Of a stretch of DNA of 64,000 nucleotides, positions 1 through 9,342 are shown piece after piece. Below the pieces are notes generated by a model. It was not told the DNA's origin, did no database searches, and was given only the letters and a program-made list of their open reading frames with translations. A program made the translations under genes and the position numbers. Location: assembly GCF_034366625.1 (NCBI RefSeq), contig NZ_JAXMIH010000030.1, forward strand, positions 62,001 to 126,000, written 5' to 3'. Position 1 is the first letter of the stretch, and each line of letters opens with the position of its first letter. The stretch is from Prosthecobacter sp. (lineage in GTDB: Bacteria > Verrucomicrobiota > Verrucomicrobiia > Verrucomicrobiales > Verrucomicrobiaceae).

Positions 1-351
1 TTGAAGATGTTTGAGATCATTGGACGTGGGGATCTCCTCCCCATGTTCCCAGCGGCGGAGCCTCTGATGAATGACCCCGACTACCTGCGCGAATCCCTTT
101 TGGTCCATACCCTGATACCGCCGTGCCTTCAGCACGAGGTCCGCAGCGGTCTTTTCAGACTCAGGGTAATGGCCAAGGAACGAAAGAATGCCCGGCCACT
201 CCGACACGACAGGCTGTCGTTCGTCACGCTCCCAACGCTCATAAACCTCGCGCAGAGTGCTCAATTGTTTGGCCACGTCCTCTTGCCGTAACCCTAGAAC
301 CAGCCTTCGATTGCGAAGATGTTCGCCAAGGCTTTTTGGCTGAGCGATCAT
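1..351 (-). CDS. Double helix-turn-helix (XRE-like) regulator, 3' part outside the window
   Basis: The reverse strand reads from an ATG at 349-351 (MIAQPKSLGEHLRNRRL...) without a stop to base 1, so the C-terminus is missing. Two XRE-like helix-turn-helix segments are visible: about residues 8-40 (RNRRLVLGLRQEDVAKQL) and about residues 76-105 (GMDQKGFAQVVG followed by LRRWEHGEEIPTS). It is a close paralogue of the gene at 4419-4784, and both align end to end over the visible part. The alignment continues upstream of this ATG (ILRKKG in both copies), so translation could begin slightly earlier. A DNA-binding role is inferred from the fold; the target is unknown. It lies downstream of, and on the same strand as, the 587-4220 operon. 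Confidence 0.75.
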   Translation of the reverse strand, partial: MIAQPKSLGEHLRNRRLVLGLRQEDVAKQLSTLREVYERWERDERQPVVSEWPGILSFLGHYPESEKTAADLVLKARRYQGMDQKGFAQVVGVIHQRLRRWEHGEEIPTSNDLKHLQ

Positions 352-400
352 GCCTTTCTTTCTCAGAATGAATGTTTTAAACGTTTGTTTGCCGACTCGA

Positions 401-430
401 ATCGTAAAAAAAGCAAAATGGCAAAATAGG
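401..430 (-). promoter_or_regulatory. Conserved operator/promoter-like block upstream of first XRE gene
   Basis: Read on the reverse strand this block contains TTTTGCCATTTTGC followed by a T run and ACGAT. It sits about 50 bases before the ATG at 351. The same block, shorter by one base in the T run, lies about 53 bases before the paralogous gene at 4784, while the DNA between block and gene has diverged. The TTTTGC hexamer is repeated directly with an 8-base period. The selective conservation suggests a promoter or an operator for autoregulation; no clean -35/-10 pair is visible. Confidence 0.45.
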
Positions 431-586
431 ACGACGTACATTTCAAGTGAGGTTGACAGCAGATTTCCTGCGCAGTTCATGTTCATCGTCGCAATGAATC
501 CATGTCACCACGTTGCCTAATTTCAGCCTCTTGAAGGTCGTCTTCCAATTCTGTTTCTATGCCGCGCATCCATGCGAGCTGCGGCT

Positions 587-2062
587 TCAAAAGCTGTCTA
601 TCGCGCGAGTCACTTTCTCTCGCCGATGAGGCCCGAGCAGTGGTTGGTCTTTTAGCCATTTTCCCGACTCGGAGAGACTCTTTGTGATCCTTCTCCAATG
701 CGAGGAACTTCGGCTGGACATGTTGGCCAGAATTTGCCAGTGCGCGTATTTTGCCATCGCATGAGGATAACGATGAGCCTTTCCTTTGAAGTCGGTGCAA
801 AGGCTCGCGAGAGCCGCAGTTTCTCTGCGACTCCATTGACGACGGCGATAGAATAGCGGGCGGCCAGCGAGGCGCAGCGCCTTGCAAAGATCGCGATCTT
901 TGGAAGAAAGCCTGAGCCAAGGACGGACGCTGATCTCGATCGTGTTGGAAGAAATCACCACTCTCTTGGAGAGACGCCAGGTGATCCACACACGATGCAC
1001 GCCGGCGTGGCGGAAGGTATAGCCTCCTGACTGGCCGAAGAGGGTCAGATCACGTTCGAACGGTTGTTCCGGCGTGACCGGGCACGGAGCCGCGTTTTCA
1101 CAACAGTGGTTGATGGACTTGTAGCGACGTCGCTCACCCAGCGGATTTTCAATCCATACGGCGAAGCTGGAATAAGATGGATCCATCTCATTGCGCAGGC
1201 CTCGGGGCACCCTGCAACCGGGAACGACCGAGAGCTTCATGTCGAGCTCCACAGGCTCAAAAGGAAGAAACTCGTCACAGATGGCTTTGATTTTGAGTTT
1301 GAGAGGCGCGATGCCGAGAGCTTTTGTCACTCGTTCGTCCCCGCCGCCGACATAGGAGTGGTCGCCAAACTCATGACCGCCCGGGTACACGGATGGCTGG
1401 CGGCAGTCGGTCAGGTAGGCCTCGTTTTCGGCATTGAAGCGATACCAGGTGCGCGGCGGCGCGCTTGCAGCCGGGCTCTGACGGAGGAAGCACTGTTGAT
1501 CCTCGACATGCAGGAGGTTGAACACATGGGCAAGCTCATGCACGCTCGTGTAAGCCGCCTGATCCACCCGCTCGTTTGCCGGGCGGGTGTTATGAATGGT
1601 CTGGAGGAAGACCGCGCAGGCTTCACGGCAGCAGTGCTTCCACTGGGTCCAGTCGTAGCTTGGATTGTGGGTTTCGTCGTCGAAATCGGTGTGAAAACCG
1701 GTGTCAAACATGAGGCCGCGGAGTCCAGGGTGACCATCCAAAGCGGGCGCGTAAATGACGGCGATGTTTTCCAGCGGACCAGCAGGAGTGGCCGTGGAGT
1801 TCCCGGTCACCTGCGAGGCAAAATGGTGCAGGTCCGCCACGGTGACGGCCTGCCGGGTGGGATCGGGATTCTGGGCCGCGGTCATGCGCGTGGTATCGAG
1901 CGCCAGGCGCAATCGATGATTGGACGTCGCCAGAAAGAGTTCTGGTAGCGTGTAGGCAACTCCGTTGCTGCACAATACATCGGGACCATCGGACGGCACC
2001 AAGCCGTCAGGCAGGTCGCCTAACGCAGCCAGATGGCATGTGACATCGAGGGTGTTGGGCAT
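587..2062 (-). CDS. Putative metzincin-like zinc metallopeptidase, last gene of the envelope operon
   Basis: This is a 491-residue protein with no recognisable overall family. It carries HELAHVFNLLH at residues 175-185, which fits HExxHxxxxxH, the zinc-binding helix of metzincins and relatives: H175, H179 and H185 as ligands, E176 as catalytic base. The usual glycine at the eighth position is asparagine. Cysteines are frequent (for example HCCREAC about 143-149, and HCCENAAPC in the C-terminal half), which would suit an exported, disulfide-bonded protein, but no signal peptide is seen. The last ~110 residues are rich in Arg and Ser. Its start lies 30 bases after the lipoprotein gene at 2093-3043, so it is probably cotranscribed with the upstream lipoproteins and membrane protein. 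Substrate unknown; protease activity is inferred from the motif alone. Confidence 0.6.
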   Translation of the reverse strand: MPNTLDVTCHLAALGDLPDGLVPSDGPDVLCSNGVAYTLPELFLATSNHRLRLALDTTRMTAAQNPDPTRQAVTVADLHHFASQVTGNSTATPAGPLENIAVIYAPALDGHPGLRGLMFDTGFHTDFDDETHNPSYDWTQWKHCCREACAVFLQTIHNTRPANERVDQAAYTSVHELAHVFNLLHVEDQQCFLRQSPAASAPPRTWYRFNAENEAYLTDCRQPSVYPGGHEFGDHSYVGGGDERVTKALGIAPLKLKIKAICDEFLPFEPVELDMKLSVVPGCRVPRGLRNEMDPSYSSFAVWIENPLGERRRYKSINHCCENAAPCPVTPEQPFERDLTLFGQSGGYTFRHAGVHRVWITWRLSKRVVISSNTIEISVRPWLRLSSKDRDLCKALRLAGRPLFYRRRQWSRRETAALASLCTDFKGKAHRYPHAMAKYAHWQILANMSSRSSSHWRRITKSLSESGKWLKDQPLLGPHRREKVTRAIDSF

Positions 2063-2092
2063 GACTCCGCAAAGTATGGCCGGCCGACGAAC

Positions 2093-3043
2093 TCAGTTGT
2101 CCACCTTGATGGTGATGCTGATGTCAGCTGTGGTGACGGGCGTTTTCTGGCTCTTGACCTTGAGGGTCAGGATGTAGGTGTCCGTTGCAATTGCCGCCTT
2201 GTCGATTTTGATCACGGCTTTATCCGCGTTATCGAGCACCACATTGCACAAAGGAGTGCGGTCCTGATTCTCGAGGTTTTTCAGAGTATAGCCATCCTGC
2301 TTGACCTTCATGTCAAACTGGGGAGTCAGGATGAGATGCGGACCCGGCTCCGCATTCTTTTTGAGCACCATTTGTTTTTCGGAAACCAGCTTGGGCCCGG
2401 CGGGAGTGGCTGTGCCACCGCCGTCGGGGGTGCCGGTGGTCTCGAAGGATTTCTGCTGACTGGGGGTGAGCCCCTGGCCATTGAGAGTCGCCCTGAACGT
2501 CACGGGCTGCAAACGGACGCCATAGGACGGATCCTCCACCACGCGGTAGATAACAGGGCCATTCGCCATCGTGTCCACGCCTGCGCTCCTTGCACCAGCC
2601 CCGTCCGCGTTGCCATCATCGGCCCCGTCTCCCCCTGAAGGCTTTTTGGCGGTGTTCAAGGCCTTGAGATGGGTCTCCAGCAAGTTGCCGGCCGTGTCCA
2701 CCATGGAGGTTGCGACAGCGGTGTCATCCTTGGTGTATGAGACGGACTTGAGGAAGCCGCGCGAGGTGCGCTGCAGGTTCATCTTGTGCTTGGCCATGAA
2801 GCTCCAGGCACTCACCGCGTATTCATTGTCGGGGTCGGGAAGGTACTCGACGCTGTAGCTGATCTTGCCGTTTCCTTGGGGTTTGCCGACGATAAAAGGC
2901 TGAGGCAGGGAATAGCGCACGCCTCTGGCCTTGCTTGGAACGGTGCCACAGGCGTTGTCGACTTTCTTGACGTCAATGCGTGCGATGCAGGAACCCAGCA
3001 CGAGAGGGAGGAGGAGACGCGGAAGCTGTTGGATGAGATGCAT
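2093..3043 (-). CDS. Predicted lipoprotein with GxRY/YLPD domain (larger copy)
   Basis: The 316-residue protein starts with a hydrophobic signal ending in the lipobox LGSC, with Cys19 as the predicted lipidated residue. Residues about 40-130 hold a domain with GVRYSLPQPFIV, then EYLPDPDNEY, then SFMAKH and DDTAVATSMV. The same order of landmarks occurs in the neighbouring lipoprotein at 3062-3631, so the two look like paralogues. A Gly/Asp-rich linker (about 133-150) joins it to a C-terminal part ending in a likely beta-rich segment (TYILTLKVKSQ). It sits third in the leftward operon, 18 bases after its paralogue. Function unknown; an envelope-anchored binding role is only a guess. Confidence 0.65.
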   Translation of the reverse strand: MHLIQQLPRLLLPLVLGSCIARIDVKKVDNACGTVPSKARGVRYSLPQPFIVGKPQGNGKISYSVEYLPDPDNEYAVSAWSFMAKHKMNLQRTSRGFLKSVSYTKDDTAVATSMVDTAGNLLETHLKALNTAKKPSGGDGADDGNADGAGARSAGVDTMANGPVIYRVVEDPSYGVRLQPVTFRATLNGQGLTPSQQKSFETTGTPDGGGTATPAGPKLVSEKQMVLKKNAEPGPHLILTPQFDMKVKQDGYTLKNLENQDRTPLCNVVLDNADKAVIKIDKAAIATDTYILTLKVKSQKTPVTTADISITIKVDN

Positions 3044-3061
3044 GGGTGGAACGATGAGGGG

Positions 3062-3631
3062 TTAAGACTTGACCGGGCTGCCGCCGCTGCCGCGGAGTTC
3101 CCAGACACACTGGCCTTTAGCGTCGATGGTCTTGATGATCTTGAAGAGGTAAACCCGTGGGGCCATGCCGTTGGCGTCCGCGACTTCCCGAGCAGGACTG
3201 GTGTCCGCCGCGATGGCGATCTTGGCCGCTTTTTCGAGAGCTGAAATCACGGCCTTGGGCACGGCGGTGCCGTCGCCATTGGACTCTGCGCCGGTCAGGA
3301 TGCCGTCCTCGAAGTCTAACTTGCCATCCGTGGACGCGAGGAATTGATAGGGCTTCACCTGCCGTTTCTTGGTGAGGTCCGGCATGTACTTGAGCTCGGA
3401 GTTCAAGGATCCCTTGTTGTCGGTGTAAACGAGGAGATAGGGAGATGAGTCGTAGTAACGGAAGCCGCTGGCGGACCAGTCCTCATCCTCGGTCAAAGTT
3501 CTGCCGCTCAACCCTGCACAAGCGGCGAGTGTCAGGGCGAGACCAACGAGGCAGACGCGGGCAAGGCCAGACAGAACGGAGGCGTACGGCGGCGGAGGAG
3601 TAGGATTCGGGAGCGATGGGTTGGGTGTCAT
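3062..3631 (-). CDS. Predicted lipoprotein with GxRY/YxPD domain (smaller copy)
   Basis: The start chosen is the ATG at 3629-3631. It gives a 189-residue protein with a Pro-rich N-terminus and then a signal sequence ending LTLAAC (Cys38 predicted lipidated). A longer reading from 3817 would add a Lys/Arg-rich stretch that merely reads the upstream coding region out of frame. The mature part shows GFRYYDSSPYLLV, LKYMPDL, FLAS and DGTAVPKAV, matching landmarks in the larger lipoprotein just downstream. The C-terminal half is predicted alpha/beta with KIIKTIDAKGQCVWEL. It is the second gene of the operon. Not recognised beyond that; probably anchored at the outer or inner membrane, facing the periplasm or outside. 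Confidence 0.65.
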   Translation of the reverse strand: MTPNPSLPNPTPPPPYASVLSGLARVCLVGLALTLAACAGLSGRTLTEDEDWSASGFRYYDSSPYLLVYTDNKGSLNSELKYMPDLTKKRQVKPYQFLASTDGKLDFEDGILTGAESNGDGTAVPKAVISALEKAAKIAIAADTSPAREVADANGMAPRVYLFKIIKTIDAKGQCVWELRGSGGSPVKS

Positions 3632-3695
3632 AAGAGTGAGCGCTGCGAGAGTGAATTTAGGGGAATGCCATGGCGTGAGAGAACCGGCTCCGGGA

Positions 3696-4220
3696 TCAGC
3701 CGGGTTTTGTTTCGGCTCTTGCCTTTGCCGCTTCGGCTTGTGCTTTCTCGGCCTCGGCCTTGTCTGTTTCAGCCTTGAGCTTTTCCGCCTTCGAGGCAGC
3801 GAGCTTCTCTTCCGCATCCTTGATGCCCTTCACCTTCAAGAGATACTCAAGCACAGAGTTCCACAGTCCAGAGCCGCCACTTGAAAAAAGGCCGAGTGCA
3901 AGGATGATCAAGATGGTGGACAAAGGCTGGGGAAAGTGGCTTTTGTCAGTGAACAGATTGGTGTAATTCGTGATCGCGGGACTGGCCAGCGCCGCGGTGA
4001 CAATGCCGCATAAGACAGCCAGCATATGCACGCGAGCTTTGCGCTTGGCTTCAGCACGAGCCGCCGCCGCAACAACCTCGGGAGGAGAACCGGCCGGAGC
4101 AGGAACTTCCTGAAACAAATGCTGTGGAAGATAGGCCTTGAGGATTTCCACCAGACGCTCGGAGGCGAGGCTGATGGAGGCCAGGAGGGTGACGATGGCG
4201 ATAAGATCCGGGAGCATCAT
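3696..4220 (-). CDS. Small membrane protein with C-terminal coiled coil, first gene of the operon
   Basis: The 174-residue protein has three hydrophobic segments (about 5-20, 66-83 and 100-118). A GSGLWNSVLEYLLKVKG stretch follows, then a highly charged tail (about 132-174) built from alternating Lys, Glu and Ala that should form a coiled-coil helix. The layout of few short transmembrane helices plus a charged tail resembles phage holins or small scaffold proteins, but no family is recognised. It heads the leftward operon and is preceded by an AT-rich promoter region. A membrane platform for the two downstream lipoproteins is an inference from gene order only. Confidence 0.65.
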   Translation of the reverse strand: MMLPDLIAIVTLLASISLASERLVEILKAYLPQHLFQEVPAPAGSPPEVVAAAARAEAKRKARVHMLAVLCGIVTAALASPAITNYTNLFTDKSHFPQPLSTILIILALGLFSSGGSGLWNSVLEYLLKVKGIKDAEEKLAASKAEKLKAETDKAEAEKAQAEAAKARAETKPG

Positions 4221-4234
4221 TTAATTAATTTCAA

Positions 4235-4263
4235 AAATAACAATTCGGATCAATCAGTGTCAA
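4235..4263 (-). promoter_or_regulatory. Sigma70-like promoter for the envelope operon
   Basis: On the reverse strand a perfect TTGACA (4258-4263) is followed after 17 bases by TTATTT (4235-4240), placing transcription start within about 10 bases of the ATG at 4220. The surrounding 4215-4310 stretch is strongly AT-rich in an otherwise GC-rich window. The very short leader that results is unusual. Confidence 0.45.
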
Positions 4264-4418
4264 AATTTATAATAATTATATAAGATAGGTGATTAGTATT
4301 CATTGGAGTCAACATTGAAAATCAAGGTGGTAGGGATGGTCTGAATAATCCTTTACGCTAGGGATTCGCAGAGCCAAAGAGTGGACGTTCAATTCATGAC
4401 ACCTACCGGATGCAGAGG

Positions 4419-4784
4419 TTACGGGCATGCGAGAGAGTGAAGACATTCCAACTTGTCGGATGTGGGGATCTCCTCTCCATGTTCCCAGCGGCGGAGCCTC
4501 TGGTGAATGACGCCGACTACCTGTGCCAAGCCCTTCTGATCCAGGCCTTGGCACCGCCGTGCTTTCAGCACAAGATTCGCAGCGGTCTCCACGCCAGCAG
4601 GGTAGTAGCCAAGAAATCGAAGGATGCCCGGCCACTCAGACACGACAGGCTGTCGTTCGTCGCGCTCCCAGCGCTCATAAACCTCTCGTAGTGTGCCAAG
4701 TTGGGTGGCTACATTCTCCTGTCTGAGTCCAAGAGTCAGCCTCCGATTGCGCAGATGTTCGCCGAGCGTGTTCGGTGCTGTCAC
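4419..4784 (-). CDS. Double helix-turn-helix (XRE-like) regulator, complete copy
   Basis: The chosen start is the GTG at 4782-4784, which matches the ATG of the paralogue at 351 and gives about 121 residues. The reading frame stays open upstream to 4859 and the paralogues remain similar there (ILRKKG), so the true start could be slightly earlier; AAAGGAG lies only 2 bases before the GTG. Two XRE-like domains are visible: LRNRRLTLGLRQENVATQLG...WERDERQP and then CQGLDQKGLAQVVG...LRRWEHGEEIP. Each has the recognition-helix pattern and the trailing W-x-R/H-x-E seen in such repressors. It lies just upstream of, and on the same strand as, the operon starting at 4220, and is a natural candidate to regulate it. 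Confidence 0.75.
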   Translation of the reverse strand: MTAPNTLGEHLRNRRLTLGLRQENVATQLGTLREVYERWERDERQPVVSEWPGILRFLGYYPAGVETAANLVLKARRCQGLDQKGLAQVVGVIHQRLRRWEHGEEIPTSDKLECLHSLACP

Positions 4785-4836
4785 CGCTCCTTTCTTTCTC
4801 AAAATGAATGCTTTGATCTTCTCTGGAGCCACGGAG

Positions 4837-4865
4837 ATCGTAAAAAAGCAAAATGGCAAAATAGG
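4837..4865 (-). promoter_or_regulatory. Conserved operator/promoter-like block upstream of second XRE gene
   Basis: Apart from one missing base in the T run, this is identical to the block at 401-430. It holds the same 8-base-spaced TTTTGC repeat on the reverse strand, about 53 bases before the GTG at 4784. It also lies about 105 bases before the forward thrS start, so a factor binding here could influence both directions. Confidence 0.45.
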
Positions 4866-4969
4866 GTGACACCTATTTCAGCCGGTAAACGAGCAGGGTG
4901 GGGGATCGGGCCGCAATCATCTTGAAACCTTCGGCGTCCTGCGGCATGGACACGGCCCCTCTCACAACC

Positions 4970-6931
4970 ATGTCCGCCGAACGAAAAACTCTCGAAGAAC
5001 GCGCTCAGATGTCCGACATCGACCGCCTGCGCCACTCCTGTGCCCATGTGATGGCCACTGCCATCCTGCGCCTGTGGCCGAACGCCCAGTTCGCCTACGG
5101 TCCGCCCGTGGAGAACGGCTTCTACTACGACTTCGACCTGCCGGACCACCGTATCACGCCGGACGACTTCGAGAAGATCGAGGCGGAGATGAAGAAAATC
5201 TCGAAGGAGAACCAGAAGTTCGAATGGAAGGGCATCAGCCGCGACGAAGCGAAGGCGATGGCGCAAAGCGGCCGCCTCGGCGGTTTGACCGAGCGCCCAG
5301 GGAACCCGAGCGTGTTCAAGCTCGACCTCATCGACAAGATTCCTGAAGGCGAGCAGATCTCCTGCTTCCAGAACGGCGATTTTATCGACCTTTGTGCCGG
5401 ACCGCACGTCGGTTACAGCGGCAAGTGCAAACACGTGAAGCTCATGTCGGTCAGCTCGTCCTTCTACATGGGCGACGAGACGAAACCGCAGCTCCAGCGT
5501 CTCTACGGCACCGCGTTCCCGACCAGCGAGGAACTCGCCAAGCATCTCGAACAGCTCGAAGAGGCAAAGAAGCGCGATCACCGCAAGCTGGGCAAAGAAT
5601 TGAAGCTCTTCCACATCGACGAAGAAGTCGGGCAAGGTTTGATCCTGTGGACACCGAACGGCGCGATCCTGCGCCAGGAACTGCAAAACTTCATCAGCGA
5701 GGAACTGCGCAAGCAGGGCTACAGCCAGGTCTTCACGCCGCACATCGGCAAAGTCGGCCTCTACAAGACCAGCGGCCACTTCCCTTATTACAAGGAGAGC
5801 CAGTTCGCGCCCGTCATCGAGAACGACGACCTCGCGAAGGTCATCAAAGAAGGCTGCGGCTGCTGTGAAGTCATGGAACGCCTCGGTGCTGTGTCTGCCA
5901 AGATGCGCCAGGGACTCAACGAGCGTGCTGGCAAGGAAATCGTGCCTGAAGATCGCGTGCTGCCCGATGACCAGCTCCTCGACGGCTTCCTGCTGAAGCC
6001 GATGAACTGCCCGCATCACATCAAGATCTACGACAGTCAGCCGCACAGCTATCGCGACCTGCCCGTGCGCCTCGCCGAGTTCGGCACGGTGTATCGCTGG
6101 GAGCAGAGCGGTGAGTTGAACGGCATGACCCGCGTGCGTGGCTTCACGCAGGACGACGCGCATCTCTTCTGCACCGAAGACCAAGTCGCCGCCGAAGTCC
6201 TCGGCTGCCTGAGCCTCGTGAAGATCGTGCTCAGCACGCTAGGCATGACGGATTACCGCGTGCGCGTGGGCTTGCGTGATCCTGACAGCAGCAAATTCAC
6301 CGGCAATCCCGAGCAGTGGGACAAGGCCGAAGACGCCTGCCGCAAAGCCGCCGCCACACTCGGAGTGCCGTTCACCGAAGAGCCGGGCGAAGCCGCGTTC
6401 TACGGCCCGAAGATCGACTTCGTCATCAAGGACGTCATCGGCCGCGAATGGCAGCTCGGCACCGTGCAGGTCGATTACGTCCTGCCCGTGCGCTTTGACC
6501 TGACCTACAACGGCCCCGACAACAAGCCGCATCGCCCGGTGATGATTCATCGTGCGCCCTTCGGCAGCATGGAGCGCTTCTGCGGCGTGCTTATCGAGCA
6601 CTTCGCCGGTCACTTCCCGACCTGGCTCGCGCCCGAGCAGGTGCGCGTGCTCACCATCAGCGAAAAGGCCGATGCCTTCGCCGAGGAAACCTTCGCCCAG
6701 CTCAAGGCCGCCGGCCTGCGCGTCACGCTGAACAACGATGCCGACAAGATCGGCGCCAAGATCCGCAACGCCCAGCTCGACAAGATCCCCTACATGCTCG
6801 TCGTCGGCGAGAAGGAAGCCGCCGTGCAATCCGTCGCCGTCCGCCACAGCAAGAGGGGTGACCTCGGCGTCAAACCCATCGCCGATTTCCTCACGGAGAT
6901 CACGGCGGAGGTGCGCGAGCGGCGGTTGTAG
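4970..6931 (+). CDS. thrS: Threonyl-tRNA synthetase
   Basis: A class II synthetase that charges tRNA-Thr. The ATG at 4970 (MSAERKTLEERAQMSD) gives 653 residues and is preferred over an upstream in-frame start that lacks similarity. The protein enters directly into the editing/SAD-type domain (HSCAHVMATAI), so the usual N-terminal TGS domain is missing. The catalytic core shows KPMNCPHH (Cys347 a zinc ligand), RVRGFTQDDAH (motif 2 region with His zinc ligand) and IHRAPFGSMERF (motif 3). An insertion of about 45-50 residues containing GCGCCE (about 295-300) separates the HFPYYKES segment from motif 2. The C-terminus is the anticodon-binding domain. No T-box or leader was recognised upstream. 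Confidence 0.95.
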   Translation: MSAERKTLEERAQMSDIDRLRHSCAHVMATAILRLWPNAQFAYGPPVENGFYYDFDLPDHRITPDDFEKIEAEMKKISKENQKFEWKGISRDEAKAMAQSGRLGGLTERPGNPSVFKLDLIDKIPEGEQISCFQNGDFIDLCAGPHVGYSGKCKHVKLMSVSSSFYMGDETKPQLQRLYGTAFPTSEELAKHLEQLEEAKKRDHRKLGKELKLFHIDEEVGQGLILWTPNGAILRQELQNFISEELRKQGYSQVFTPHIGKVGLYKTSGHFPYYKESQFAPVIENDDLAKVIKEGCGCCEVMERLGAVSAKMRQGLNERAGKEIVPEDRVLPDDQLLDGFLLKPMNCPHHIKIYDSQPHSYRDLPVRLAEFGTVYRWEQSGELNGMTRVRGFTQDDAHLFCTEDQVAAEVLGCLSLVKIVLSTLGMTDYRVRVGLRDPDSSKFTGNPEQWDKAEDACRKAAATLGVPFTEEPGEAAFYGPKIDFVIKDVIGREWQLGTVQVDYVLPVRFDLTYNGPDNKPHRPVMIHRAPFGSMERFCGVLIEHFAGHFPTWLAPEQVRVLTISEKADAFAEETFAQLKAAGLRVTLNNDADKIGAKIRNAQLDKIPYMLVVGEKEAAVQSVAVRHSKRGDLGVKPIADFLTEITAEVRERRL

Positions 6932-7098
6932 TCGCGCTTTCTCAGAGCGCGGTCATGGCGTCAAGCGGCTCACCCGGTGGGCATTCAAAGTGTAGCCATG
7001 AAAGCAGCCATCCTTGAAATGAATCGGGCACGGGCCGGTGCCTGTCGCTTCTGGATCATGACGTCATGCGTGGGTCTTCTCGCCTTCTGCGCTCCCAG

Positions 7099-7596
7099 TC
7101 ACGACGGGTTGATGCCGAGCAGCTCGATCTCAAAGACCAGCGTGCTGTATGGCGGGATTTTGGGCGTAGGGCTGTTCGCGCCATAGGCCAGGTGGGATGG
7201 AATCACGAACCTGAACTTGTCGCCCACCTTCATCAAATGCACGCCTTCCGTCCAGCCGCGGATCACGGCGTTCAACGGGAAGCTGATCGGCTCGCCACGC
7301 TCCACCGAGCTGTCGAAGACCGTTCCGTTAAGCAAGGTGCCGTGATAGTGGACCCTGACGGTGTCGGTGGATACCGGTGAAACCGTGCCGGTGCCGCGCC
7401 TCAAGACCTCATACTGCAACCCTGTCAGGGTGGTATGCATGCCGCTGCCCACGCTGACATCGGCAATCGGTGAGGTGATCGGGGCCCTTTGAGGCTTGGT
7501 CTTGGGCGTTTGGCTGCAACTCAGAAGCAGCAGTGATGGAAGGATGACTTGGACGGCTTTGATCATAAGGGCGGATTTCGTGGTGAGGCTCTGCAT
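7099..7596 (-). CDS. FKBP-type peptidyl-prolyl isomerase lipoprotein
   Basis: The 165-residue protein (or 155 from an internal ATG at 7566) has a hydrophobic signal ending LLSC, a likely lipobox. An FKBP domain follows: VRVHYHGTLLNGTVFDSS, VIRGWTEGVHLMKVG, FVIPSHLAYG, and a closing STLVFEIELL strand. Most active-site aromatic/hydrophobic positions of FKBPs are present. It should catalyse prolyl cis-trans isomerisation of exported proteins at the membrane surface. It stands alone on the reverse strand, converging with thrS. Neither possible start has a clear ribosome-binding site. Confidence 0.88.
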   Translation of the reverse strand: MQSLTTKSALMIKAVQVILPSLLLLSCSQTPKTKPQRAPITSPIADVSVGSGMHTTLTGLQYEVLRRGTGTVSPVSTDTVRVHYHGTLLNGTVFDSSVERGEPISFPLNAVIRGWTEGVHLMKVGDKFRFVIPSHLAYGANSPTPKIPPYSTLVFEIELLGINPS

Positions 7597-7677
7597 CGGC
7601 CCAGTGTCTCGACTTGCCCCCTGAGGTCAAGCCGCAGCCTGTCAAAGCTGAGCTGGCAGGTAGGAAGCGGCTCCACT

Positions 7678-8265
7678 TCAGTCAATAAGCCAGTAAAGAA
7701 CCTGATGCTTGCTCTGCGATACAGCGACTCCTTTGGCGAAAAAATTGCCATTAGGTTCTTTGGGGTCACGTGCAGGTGATAAATCAAACCAGATAAAATC
7801 ATCCCCGAATTTGCGCGATTCATAGCTGGGTTCCTTCCCAAACCAGGATCTCGGGCACCACTCCTTTGGAATGACATACGGACGAGAAATCGCCATGTCG
7901 GCAGACAAGGCCTGATGCTCCGCCCGCAAGCGTTGCTCGATCTTGGACGTTTCGGCAGAGGACAGGGTTAGTAGAAGAAGGATCTGCGCACCTCGGAATC
8001 CAAATCTATAAAACATGGCATCACTTGCCGATGATGGGATGCGTTCAGGAAAGTGATCGAAGTAACAGTGGTTTCTGTCGTTCCCAGCTTCCTTTCGTTT
8101 AGGATCACCGACGATCTTGTCGTAGCGCCACAAACTGGTGGTGGGCGTAAATGCGTCATAGACTAAAACGACAGGCACCGCCAAAAGCGCAAAACCAAGG
8201 GCGCAGACGATGAAGAGAGGGGCTTTGATGAGGCGAATGAATTTTTCCCTGATCATAAGAATCAT
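7678..8265 (-). CDS. Hypothetical membrane-anchored protein
   Basis: The 195-residue protein has an N-terminal hydrophobic anchor (about residues 15-36) and a second hydrophobic stretch (about 90-103, QILLLLTLSS). A soluble C-terminal region with several Trp residues follows, rich in Phe/Tyr and charged residues. The start at 8265 is supported by GAGGTG about 6 bases upstream; a second ATG lies three codons in. No family is recognised. It lies between the FKBP lipoprotein and the thioredoxin-like gene on the same strand, but with gaps of about 80 and 120 bases an operon is uncertain. Confidence 0.55.
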   Translation of the reverse strand: MILMIREKFIRLIKAPLFIVCALGFALLAVPVVLVYDAFTPTTSLWRYDKIVGDPKRKEAGNDRNHCYFDHFPERIPSSASDAMFYRFGFRGAQILLLLTLSSAETSKIEQRLRAEHQALSADMAISRPYVIPKEWCPRSWFGKEPSYESRKFGDDFIWFDLSPARDPKEPNGNFFAKGVAVSQSKHQVLYWLID

Positions 8266-8383
8266 TTTTCACACCTCACACCTGCGTCACAAGATAGTGA
8301 ACTGCGTGCGATTACACACCAGATTGCGATGGTGGTGGTAAGCTGCCCAGTTCACCGGGTGTCCCTTCTCTGATGAACCTCGA

Positions 8384-8824
8384 CTACTTTTTCTTCGCCT
8401 TGGCATCCTCCAGCTTCTTCGCGGCCTTCTGCGCGTCGCGGAGGAGATCTTCGAAGTCTTTGGCGCTGCCATAGCCGGTGCGGCCGGCCAGTTGGGTGCC
8501 GTCGGCGGCGGCCACGACGACGAAGGGCAGCGTGGAGCCTTCCACCTTGAACTTCTCACGGAACAGGGCGCTCGTGGTCGCATCATCGCAGTTCACGTCG
8601 GCATAGACGAACTTGCTCTCCGAGAGCCGCACCTGCCGCTTCTCGATCATGCCCTTGAGCGCCTGGCAGTTGCCGCAGGCCTCACGGCCATACTGCACGA
8701 ACAGCATCTTCCCCTGGCCCTGCGCCGTCTCCAGCGCCGATTTCAAATTGGTAATCTTGTCGGGGCCGCCCGCAAGCGCGGCGGAGGCAAGCAGCAGGGC
8801 GAAGGAGGCGAGCAGAGTTTTCAT
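8384..8824 (-). CDS. Exported thioredoxin-like protein (CGNC)
   Basis: The start at 8822-8824 gives 145 residues with a clean signal peptide (MKTLLASFALLLASAALA), better than the longer reading from 8866. The mature protein has a thioredoxin fold: VQYGREACGNCQALK with Cys50 and Cys53 as the redox pair, then FVYADVNCDD and STLPFVVVAAADG, where the cis-proline loop is visible. A Lys/Ala-rich tail ends the protein. It probably works in the periplasm as a disulfide reductase or isomerase. CGNC is not the classical CGPC of cytosolic thioredoxins. Confidence 0.82.
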   Translation of the reverse strand: MKTLLASFALLLASAALAGGPDKITNLKSALETAQGQGKMLFVQYGREACGNCQALKGMIEKRQVRLSESKFVYADVNCDDATTSALFREKFKVEGSTLPFVVVAAADGTQLAGRTGYGSAKDFEDLLRDAQKAAKKLEDAKAKKK

Positions 8825-8964: not shown

Positions 8965-9342
8965 CACCAGCCTTTGGCTGCTGGCAGGCATGAAGGTCGG
9001 GAACGTCACCGCCCATTGGCTGGCAGCACCTTGGAGAGTGGGGAACATCACCACCCATCGGCTGGCGGCACCTCGGAGAGTGGAGAACGTCACCGCCCAA
9101 TGGCTGGCGGCACCCTGGAGCATGGGGAATGTCACCGCCCATTGGCTGGCGACACTTGGGAGCATGGGGGATGTCGCCGCCTATTGGCTGGCGACACCTC
9201 GGAGAGTGGGGAGCATCACCGCTCTTTAGCTGCCAACATCTGGGAGATTTCAGGATGCCACGCCGCTTTGGCCGGTGAGGCTCCCGACTTTGCTGGGTGC
9301 CAGGACGCTTTGGCTGGCGAGGCTCCCGAGCTTGCTGAACGC
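8965..9342. repeat. Nine-unit 42-bp tandem repeat (minisatellite)
   Basis: Units of exactly 42 bases begin at 8965, 9007, 9049, 9091, 9133, 9175, 9217, 9259 and 9301. The consensus core is CACCGCCCATTGGCTGGCG followed by a purine-rich GGAGAGTGGGGAAC-like half. The central units (9007-9216) are most alike and the outer ones decay. Because 42 is a multiple of three, several frames on both strands stay open and encode 14-residue repeats, but none has a credible start or function. It fills most of the 8825-9450 gap between the thioredoxin-like gene and the restriction enzyme; nothing else is seen there. Confidence 0.85.

Follow-up and report, generated by a model that had tools for sequence, protein, structure and literature searches.

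A sparse three-gene unit of two paralogous lipoproteins and a metzincin-type protease in Prosthecobacter and scattered other bacteria: a candidate protease-partner system of the bacterial envelope

In Listeria monocytogenes, a metzincin protease cleaves and releases a TIMP-like lipoprotein that is encoded beside it (Boichis et al. 2021, PMC8235301). The Mtz-Tim pair is governed by an XRE switch, and clipping the lipoprotein free leaves the cell more readily lysed (PMC8235301). Here, we describe a locus of comparable layout in Prosthecobacter (Verrucomicrobiota), in which genes for two lipoproteins, A and B, stand beside the gene for a metzincin-type metalloprotease. It lies in a stretch of 64,000 nucleotides (G000:C30:62001-126000, “the window”) within a 6.6 Mb genome. 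A preliminary description had read an undescribed envelope system of four genes here, a membrane protein being the fourth. That idea survives in modified form: judged from sequence, the conserved unit is lipoprotein A, lipoprotein B and the metzincin. Because the lipoprotein family also adjoins unrelated proteases, we take the locus for a candidate system of protease partners in the bacterial envelope, so far undescribed.

As in Mtz-Tim (PMC8235301), the metzincin gene adjoins a lipoprotein gene (here in 13 of 14 loci), there are two XRE regulators, and mobile elements are found among the neighbors. Unlike the protease described here, Listeria Mtz carries a Sec signal peptide and precedes its single TIMP-like lipoprotein (PMC8235301), whereas here two lipoproteins come before a metzincin without an evident signal peptide. 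The Listeria XRE genes face opposite directions (PMC8235301), and those in the window are same-strand duplicates. The likeness is one of layout, Mtz being known here through its published description. The literature matches listed, all of them open-licence papers, contained no description of the present lipoprotein-metzincin operon.

Relatives were collected with a pattern scan of an 84,980-species genome collection, in which the two first metzincins served as queries and 17 loci (numbered with the prefix L) were returned. The scan demands that either of two short peptide motifs be present, and relatives lacking both are missed. Our set consists of the 14 distinct full-length metzincins, window included; one partial match (L022) and three weak relatives (L023-L025) were dropped, none of which showed lipoproteins in a profile search, and L009, which is the same contig as L002/L005, was counted once. 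In 13 of the 14 loci, lipoprotein A, lipoprotein B and metzincin follow one another in this order on one strand, and these loci come from six phyla (several of them assigned from organism names): the window, a Prosthecobacter, a Myxococcota metagenome-assembled genome, Undibacterium, Janthinobacterium, Sphingomonas, Marinicaulis, Rhodopila, another proteobacterium, Emticicia (Bacteroidota), two Planctomycetota, and a member of the Nitrospinaceae (Nitrospinota). The nearest three-gene relative found within the family is carried by G029, which belongs to the same genus.

At ten of the 26 junctions in the 13 loci, neighboring genes overlap by exactly 4 or 1 bases, and such overlaps are typical of translational coupling. 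The lipoprotein B starts in L013, L019, and L021 are probably over-extended, and the large overlaps there are untrustworthy for this reason. Among 172 open reading frames (ORFs) of at least 100 aa from 13 loci (Prosthecobacter excluded), the only widely distributed families are the lipoproteins (19 BLAST-linked ORFs in 10 loci) and the metzincins (12 loci); the next recurring neighbors are an XRE group (four loci), HipA (two), and a DNA methylase (two). The preliminary description had asked whether its four genes co-occur in other genomes. Three of them do, in fixed order, in 12 of the 13 other full-length metzincin loci, and the membrane protein does not. What stands of the proposed envelope system is thus the lipoprotein-protease set, supported as an undescribed system by this fixed co-occurrence together with lipoproteins that lack a convincing known family.

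The two window lipoproteins are related, as had been claimed. Both carry lipoboxes and they have one domain in common, 25% identical across 77 aa (E 4e-5, the pair taken singly), and each matches the two-sequence profile of the other. The lipobox cysteine is invariant in 13/13 A and 13/13 B proteins of the uncut alignments, preceded in each by a hydrophobic stretch; in A7, the core-domain profile alignment, its invariance is by construction. Searches of Pfam, NCBIfam, PADLOC, and PHROGs returned no significant family for the lipoproteins or the membrane protein, and in PADLOC the four window proteins (P0001-P0004, 587-4220) matched no family at E up to 1, the sole match being an XRE protein. 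Similarly, none of the aligned lipoproteins found a meaningful family, the single matches being Filamin (9e-4) and malonate decarboxylase holo-ACP synthase (0.003). The lipoprotein A profile had no sequence match in PDB, and the best for lipoprotein B was 0.32. The shared domain is therefore, as far as these profiles reach, one without a convincing Pfam or NCBIfam counterpart. The model of lipoprotein B is poor (pLDDT 59), and its VIA rows lie mainly over the C-terminal part, which is similar to Ig/CopC domains (Z 8.9 to 3bc9, 8.0 to PcoC). No fold was assigned to the core domain, the model being too poor.

The strongest evidence that the lipoprotein deals with proteases in general comes from loci in which it has a different protease for a neighbor. 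Profile searches of Verrucomicrobiota, Planctomycetota, Pseudomonadota, Myxococcota, and Bacteroidota gave 18 lipoprotein loci without a metzincin (4+11+1+1+1). Directly adjacent to the lipoprotein in seven of the 18 is an S1-type or caspase-family gene: a caspase in L054 (Pfam 1.3e-33), trypsin-like proteases in L077 (E 4e-4, below Pfam's cut-off), L081, L083, L088, and L097, and in L086 both, with a trypsin-like gene (1.3e-18) on one side and a caspase gene (1e-26) on the other. A further locus, L006, which was found through the membrane protein, has a lipoprotein beside a trypsin-like protease. The S1 calls for P0011, P0014, P0015, P0016, and the L097 protein were made by eye from triad motifs, and Pfam or PDB support for each of them singly is weak or absent. 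When 19 loci were scanned for motifs as a control, those of S1/C14 occurred in 8 of 37 adjacent ORFs and 0 of 127 others (p 3.5e-6), a value that is indicative only, because the motifs were written after most of the proteases had been seen and miss P0011 (GDSGL). L097 and L098 were fetched after the idea of protease neighbors had formed, and one of the two has a trypsin-like neighbor.

One lipoprotein family thus stands beside metzincin, trypsin-like, and caspase genes, that is, it accompanies proteases of three unrelated folds, and its business would seem to be proteases as such. Since the metzincin can be replaced while the lipoprotein domain stays, we take the lipoprotein as the constant part (partner or sensor) and the protease as the exchangeable one (effector). 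As a side observation, L086 (G815, Planctomycetota; 2012-8811) has in a row a caspase with weak beta-propeller matches, the lipoprotein, and the trypsin-like protease; both proteases begin, by eye, with signal-peptide-like N termini, so that in this variant every component looks exported.

An exchange of this kind has been described for bacterial conflict systems, which employ trypsin and caspase effectors (PMC7159879, PMC8195603, PMC10907252). In the NTP-dependent systems of Kaur et al. (2020, PMC7159879; 2021, PMC8195603), trypsin-like and caspase peptidases likewise swap in one gene position; the constant part is an NTPase there (PMC7159879) and a lipoprotein here. No lipoprotein-built conflict system appears in the available parts of the three papers, and in PMC7159879 the words “metzincin” and “lipoprotein” occur once each, within the reference list. 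Modelled on the peptidase effectors of Kaur et al. (PMC7159879), the locus may be read as a conflict system with an envelope sensor: the lipoproteins, together with P0001 or a different membrane protein, would sense damage and trigger an effector protease in the cytoplasm, by which the infected cell is killed or halted. We regard this as possible but doubtful. It would account for the exchange of effectors among metzincin, trypsin-like, and caspase types and for metzincins without an evident signal peptide, and it sits well with a VWA gene beside L083, with a weak NACHT/AAA-like protein and a patatin upstream in the Prosthecobacter genome, and, at other loci, with nearby genes for HipA, PIN, RES, integrases, and a type I restriction R subunit. 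However, the metzincin loci have no membrane transducer gene in common, the four window proteins match no PADLOC model, and the L086 proteases look exported.

As for the protease itself, the HExxHxxxxxH motif read in the preliminary description is indeed present (Table 1). The zinc motif HE[LV][AG]H[VIL]FN is kept in 14/14 metzincins, with His as the third ligand in 13 and Asp in one (L011), and a Met follows directly in 12/14, Leu taking its place in the window and L015 proteins (a matter of sequence position only). In the model (pLDDT 77.8), the catalytic domain aligns with archaemetzincin 2x7m (VIA-align Z 13.8, rmsd 3.5, 169 residues) and a venom metalloproteinase (Z 12.1); ADAMTS also matched, with many metzincins among the top rows, and the top Foldseek rows were beta-glucosidases of low TM-score. 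The metzincin profile matches ADAMTS-1 (E 1.4e-5) around the zinc motif. The Ig-like domain at 251-382 is closest to RbmA (Z 9.1), followed at 7.8 by the Bacillus intracellular proteinase inhibitor 3isy; VIA Z values near 8 may reflect no more than a common sandwich. With archaemetzincins, the present enzymes have in common the catalytic fold and the HExxHxxxxx[H/D] motif; the archaemetzincin pattern HEXXHXXGXXHCX4CXMX17CXXC (PMC3427221) is not kept, and there are two extra domains. The window protease matches that family weakly (E 8e-4) and scores 19.4 bits in NCBIfam (NF033823) against a cut-off of 145; in all, 13/14 metzincins match archaemetzincin weakly (best 4.9e-5) and 7/14 match Matrixin (best 0.011). 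On the evidence of the model, it is a metzincin-fold enzyme with added Ig-like and helical domains.

It is important to remember that hydropathy alone was the guide to signal peptides and transmembrane helices. By this measure, 14/14 metzincins lack an evident signal peptide; the N-terminal hydropathy of 12 of them is below that of every lipoprotein. In alignment, the metzincin N termini already fall on the first catalytic-domain strand (residues 5-14 of the window protein). The lack of an evident signal peptide argues against simple surface secretion and makes the surface proteolysis complex of the preliminary description doubtful; the protease probably waits in the cytoplasm. A disulfide pattern was looked for by eye: C9, C149, C220, and C321 are frequent but are not lost as matched pairs, so that no compartment was inferred from them.

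A rival explanation makes the metzincin a secreted toxin, delivered into neighboring cells, from which the lipoproteins would protect the producer's own periplasm. Lipoproteins expected at the surface or in the periplasm, genes that are coupled, two paralogues, and a scattered distribution are what such a toxin-immunity pair might look like. Yet no delivery domain was found on the window metzincin (Pfam, NCBIfam, PHROGs) or on the other 13 (Pfam, NCBIfam), the lipoprotein genes precede that of the enzyme, and the loci have no secretion gene family in common nearby, which leaves this explanation quite unlikely.

The distribution of the unit is sparse and scattered. The metzincin was found in 2/68 genomes of the family and 2/288 of the phylum (own genome included in both, and the other phylum match being a weak fragment), and in 1/250 genomes of the order of Undibacterium, namely Undibacterium itself. 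The lipoprotein A profile matches 5/387 Verrucomicrobiota, and the core-domain profile 12/294 Planctomycetota, 2/398 Pseudomonadota, 2/107 Myxococcota, and 2/114 Bacteroidota; all of these profile counts include the center genome, and the phylum names follow its organism. Horizontal transfer is the likely cause of this pattern. Mobile neighbors, chosen without a background control, are integrases (L014, L016) and a transposase and D5-type primase (L012); similarly chosen defense-type neighbors are the type I restriction R subunit (L016), a DNA methylase (L017), HipA (L015), PIN (L011), and RES (L013). Carriage as plasmid cargo was considered and rejected, no plasmid having matched P0004, P0003, or the L015 lipoprotein A. 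A distant metzincin relative (26% identical across 59% of the L015 query) does occur on a Methylobacterium plasmid; the 10.9 kb around it hold no annotated lipoprotein, and most genes there are called hypothetical.

So sparse and scattered an occurrence (2/68 and 1/250 genomes for the metzincin, 2/398 Pseudomonadota for the lipoprotein domain) tells against housekeeping proteolysis or lipoprotein processing in the envelope with no conflict role. The conserved active-site residues and the Ig/CopC-like domain of lipoprotein B (in a low-confidence model) would suit such a function, which we consider unlikely.

Our tentative preference, held a little short of even confidence, is for a sparse three-gene operon in which the lipoproteins are the dedicated envelope partners of the protease, the protease is exchangeable, and the setting is likely one of conflict. 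The two paralogous lipoproteins and the metzincin, transcribed together, would work as one unit; through direct interaction, the lipoproteins would most likely be cleaved by the metzincin or hold it in check, and would thereby set the time and place of proteolysis. Their role could be that of substrate, inhibitor, or sensor. The metzincin would meet them upon a breach of the envelope, for example during phage lysis or attack, and the small membrane protein perhaps helps in the Prosthecobacter genome. Phages or competitors are the likely opponents. Dedicated partners under control of the envelope barrier are favored because the layout is that of Mtz-Tim (PMC8235301), with the difference that the protease has no evident signal peptide and that there are two lipoproteins, of a family linked to Tim by layout only.

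Several observations weigh against the dedicated-partner explanation. Without an evident signal peptide on the metzincins, protease and lipoproteins are expected in different compartments, although the hydropathy of the L010 (1.78) and L015 (1.86) metzincins overlaps that of the weakest lipoprotein (1.72). The Bythopirellula locus L010 is the exception to the three-gene order, with a metzincin that stands without lipoproteins beside a divergent subtilase (L010:565-4277), and the genome gave no lipoprotein A-type match. In its favor, distances between the proteins are correlated across loci (n=13; protease-lipoprotein A r 0.46, p 2.5e-4; lipoprotein A-lipoprotein B r 0.59, p 1e-4; protease-lipoprotein B r 0.27, p 0.03), but phylum partly explains them (protease r 0.23, p 0.05; lipoprotein A r 0.50, p 0.0015). 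The poor lipoprotein model yielded no TIMP-like match, and Foldseek nothing at E <=0.001. No relative was seen in viral contigs (pattern scan) or in phage records, where the two queries, P0004 and the L018 metzincin, matched none.

The exchange of proteases has its own weak points. No S1/C14 neighbor was seen in 11 of the 18 lipoprotein loci, namely L052 and L053 (of one genus), L055, L078, L079, L080, L082, L084, L085, L087, and L098. These were judged by eye and with the motif script, and by Pfam for one gene each of L079 and L080, that of L079 being a divergent C92-type amidase just under the cut-off (E 7e-6); L078, L087, and L098 are a short contig or lie near a contig end, and gene calling is unreliable in L084 and L085, which are rich in GC. 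Taken singly, neither P0011 nor the protease of L097 matches a solved protease. A joint profile of all seven S1 candidates does match trypsin-fold proteases (FAM111A 3.9e-6, Der p 3 2.4e-4), a score that the clear L086 trypsin within it may carry, and its alignment leaves some catalytic residues out of register.

The membrane protein has the three hydrophobic stretches (~1-24, 62-85, and 95-120) and the charged Ala/Glu/Lys tail that had been described. It was sought in the 68 family genomes, the fetched loci, and the viral pattern scan; the 67 other family genomes hold one relative, and none was found in the 12 other loci with lipoprotein A, lipoprotein B, and metzincin. The relative is in L006, where a 363-aa protein, the membrane protein, the lipoprotein, and the trypsin-like protease follow in this order. 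The original picture, in which the membrane protein is the scaffold of a surface complex of four genes, could appeal to this placement directly upstream of a lipoprotein and protease; its absence from the 12 other loci and a metzincin without an evident signal peptide render that picture very unlikely. As the core of a four-gene system the membrane protein was ruled out by that absence, and by its distribution it is an accessory outside the conserved core. Separately, the 363-aa protein that heads the L006 run (P0010, L006:2979-4070) has no Pfam match. A phage lysis cassette (holin/spanin) was also considered and dropped, the only hint being a weak PHROGs match of the charged tail to an Rz-like spanin (E 0.033); no viral contig matched in the pattern scan, and no phage record matched either of the two queries.

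The features of the window locus are collected in Table 1. The four same-strand genes of the preliminary description are real minus-strand ORFs, separated by short gaps of 64, 18, and 30 bases. Its AT-rich island shrinks to the ~110 bases upstream, with a GC content of 24.5% (rank 2 of 6,389 same-size windows); the genes themselves, at 56.6-60.5% against 60.3% for the window, are not AT-rich. The promoter it placed there can be seen by eye as TTGACA at 4263 with TTATTT 17 bases on, but it is unproven, because promoter-like sites in 1-4900 are no more numerous than in shuffles (2 observed, 2.0 expected).

Table 1. Features at the window locus (coordinates in window positions)
Feature	Length	Coordinates	Strand	Remarks
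XRE-type regulator, downstream copy		1..417	minus	Extends beyond the window to G000:C30:61989; protein 77% identical to upstream copy
Metzincin-type metalloprotease	491 aa	587..2062	minus	Catalytic domain ~1-230 with HELAHVFNLLH; Ig-like domain ~251-382; helical C-terminal domain ~387-490; no evident signal peptide
Lipoprotein B	316 aa	2093..3043	minus	Lipobox Cys19; shared lipoprotein domain; C-terminal Ig/CopC-like beta domain ~217-316 (low-confidence model)
Lipoprotein A	189 aa	3062..3631	minus	Lipobox Cys38; shared lipoprotein domain
Three-helix membrane protein, charged tail	174 aa	3696..4220	minus	Accessory; one relative found, L006:2419-2940
AT-rich upstream region		4221..4330	minus	Promoter-like TTGACA (4263) ... 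TATTTT (ends 4234)
XRE-type (HTH_3/HTH_31) regulator, upstream copy		4419..4859	minus	

The flanking regulators of the preliminary description are two XRE-type genes on the same strand, one on each side of the module. They are 78% identical in DNA (449 alignment columns), and the genome yielded no further copies, barring one weak match (E 8.8e-6, 44% over 50 aa). An inducible module is possible, given these duplicate flanking genes. They also form direct repeats that bracket the module, and recombination between them could delete it. Beyond lies a threonyl-tRNA synthetase gene on the opposite strand, which ends at 6931. Elsewhere in the window, 8999-9337 holds 42-base tandem repeats (~6 and 2 copies), several of whose reading frames are open. 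Upstream of the window, on the same contig (G000:C30, L007:7923-15623), there is a run of conflict-type genes: a weak M4-peptidase-like protein, a metallo-beta-lactamase-fold protein, a patatin-like phospholipase, and a protein of 1,020 aa that matches AAA/NACHT weakly.

The analysis defines a lipoprotein family that has no convincing Pfam or NCBIfam match and is tied to proteases of three unrelated folds. Such loci may, although we are doubtful of it, be rare but widespread conflict modules of the envelope, in which one lipoprotein family guards or senses and interchangeable proteases of three folds, stored inside, act after a breach, the cleavage of the lipoprotein reporting or completing the damage. 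If a conflict role is true, the family would give the trypsin- and caspase-type effector systems known from multicellular bacteria a partner on the envelope side, and would provide a Gram-negative counterpart to the metzincin-lipoprotein pair of Listeria.

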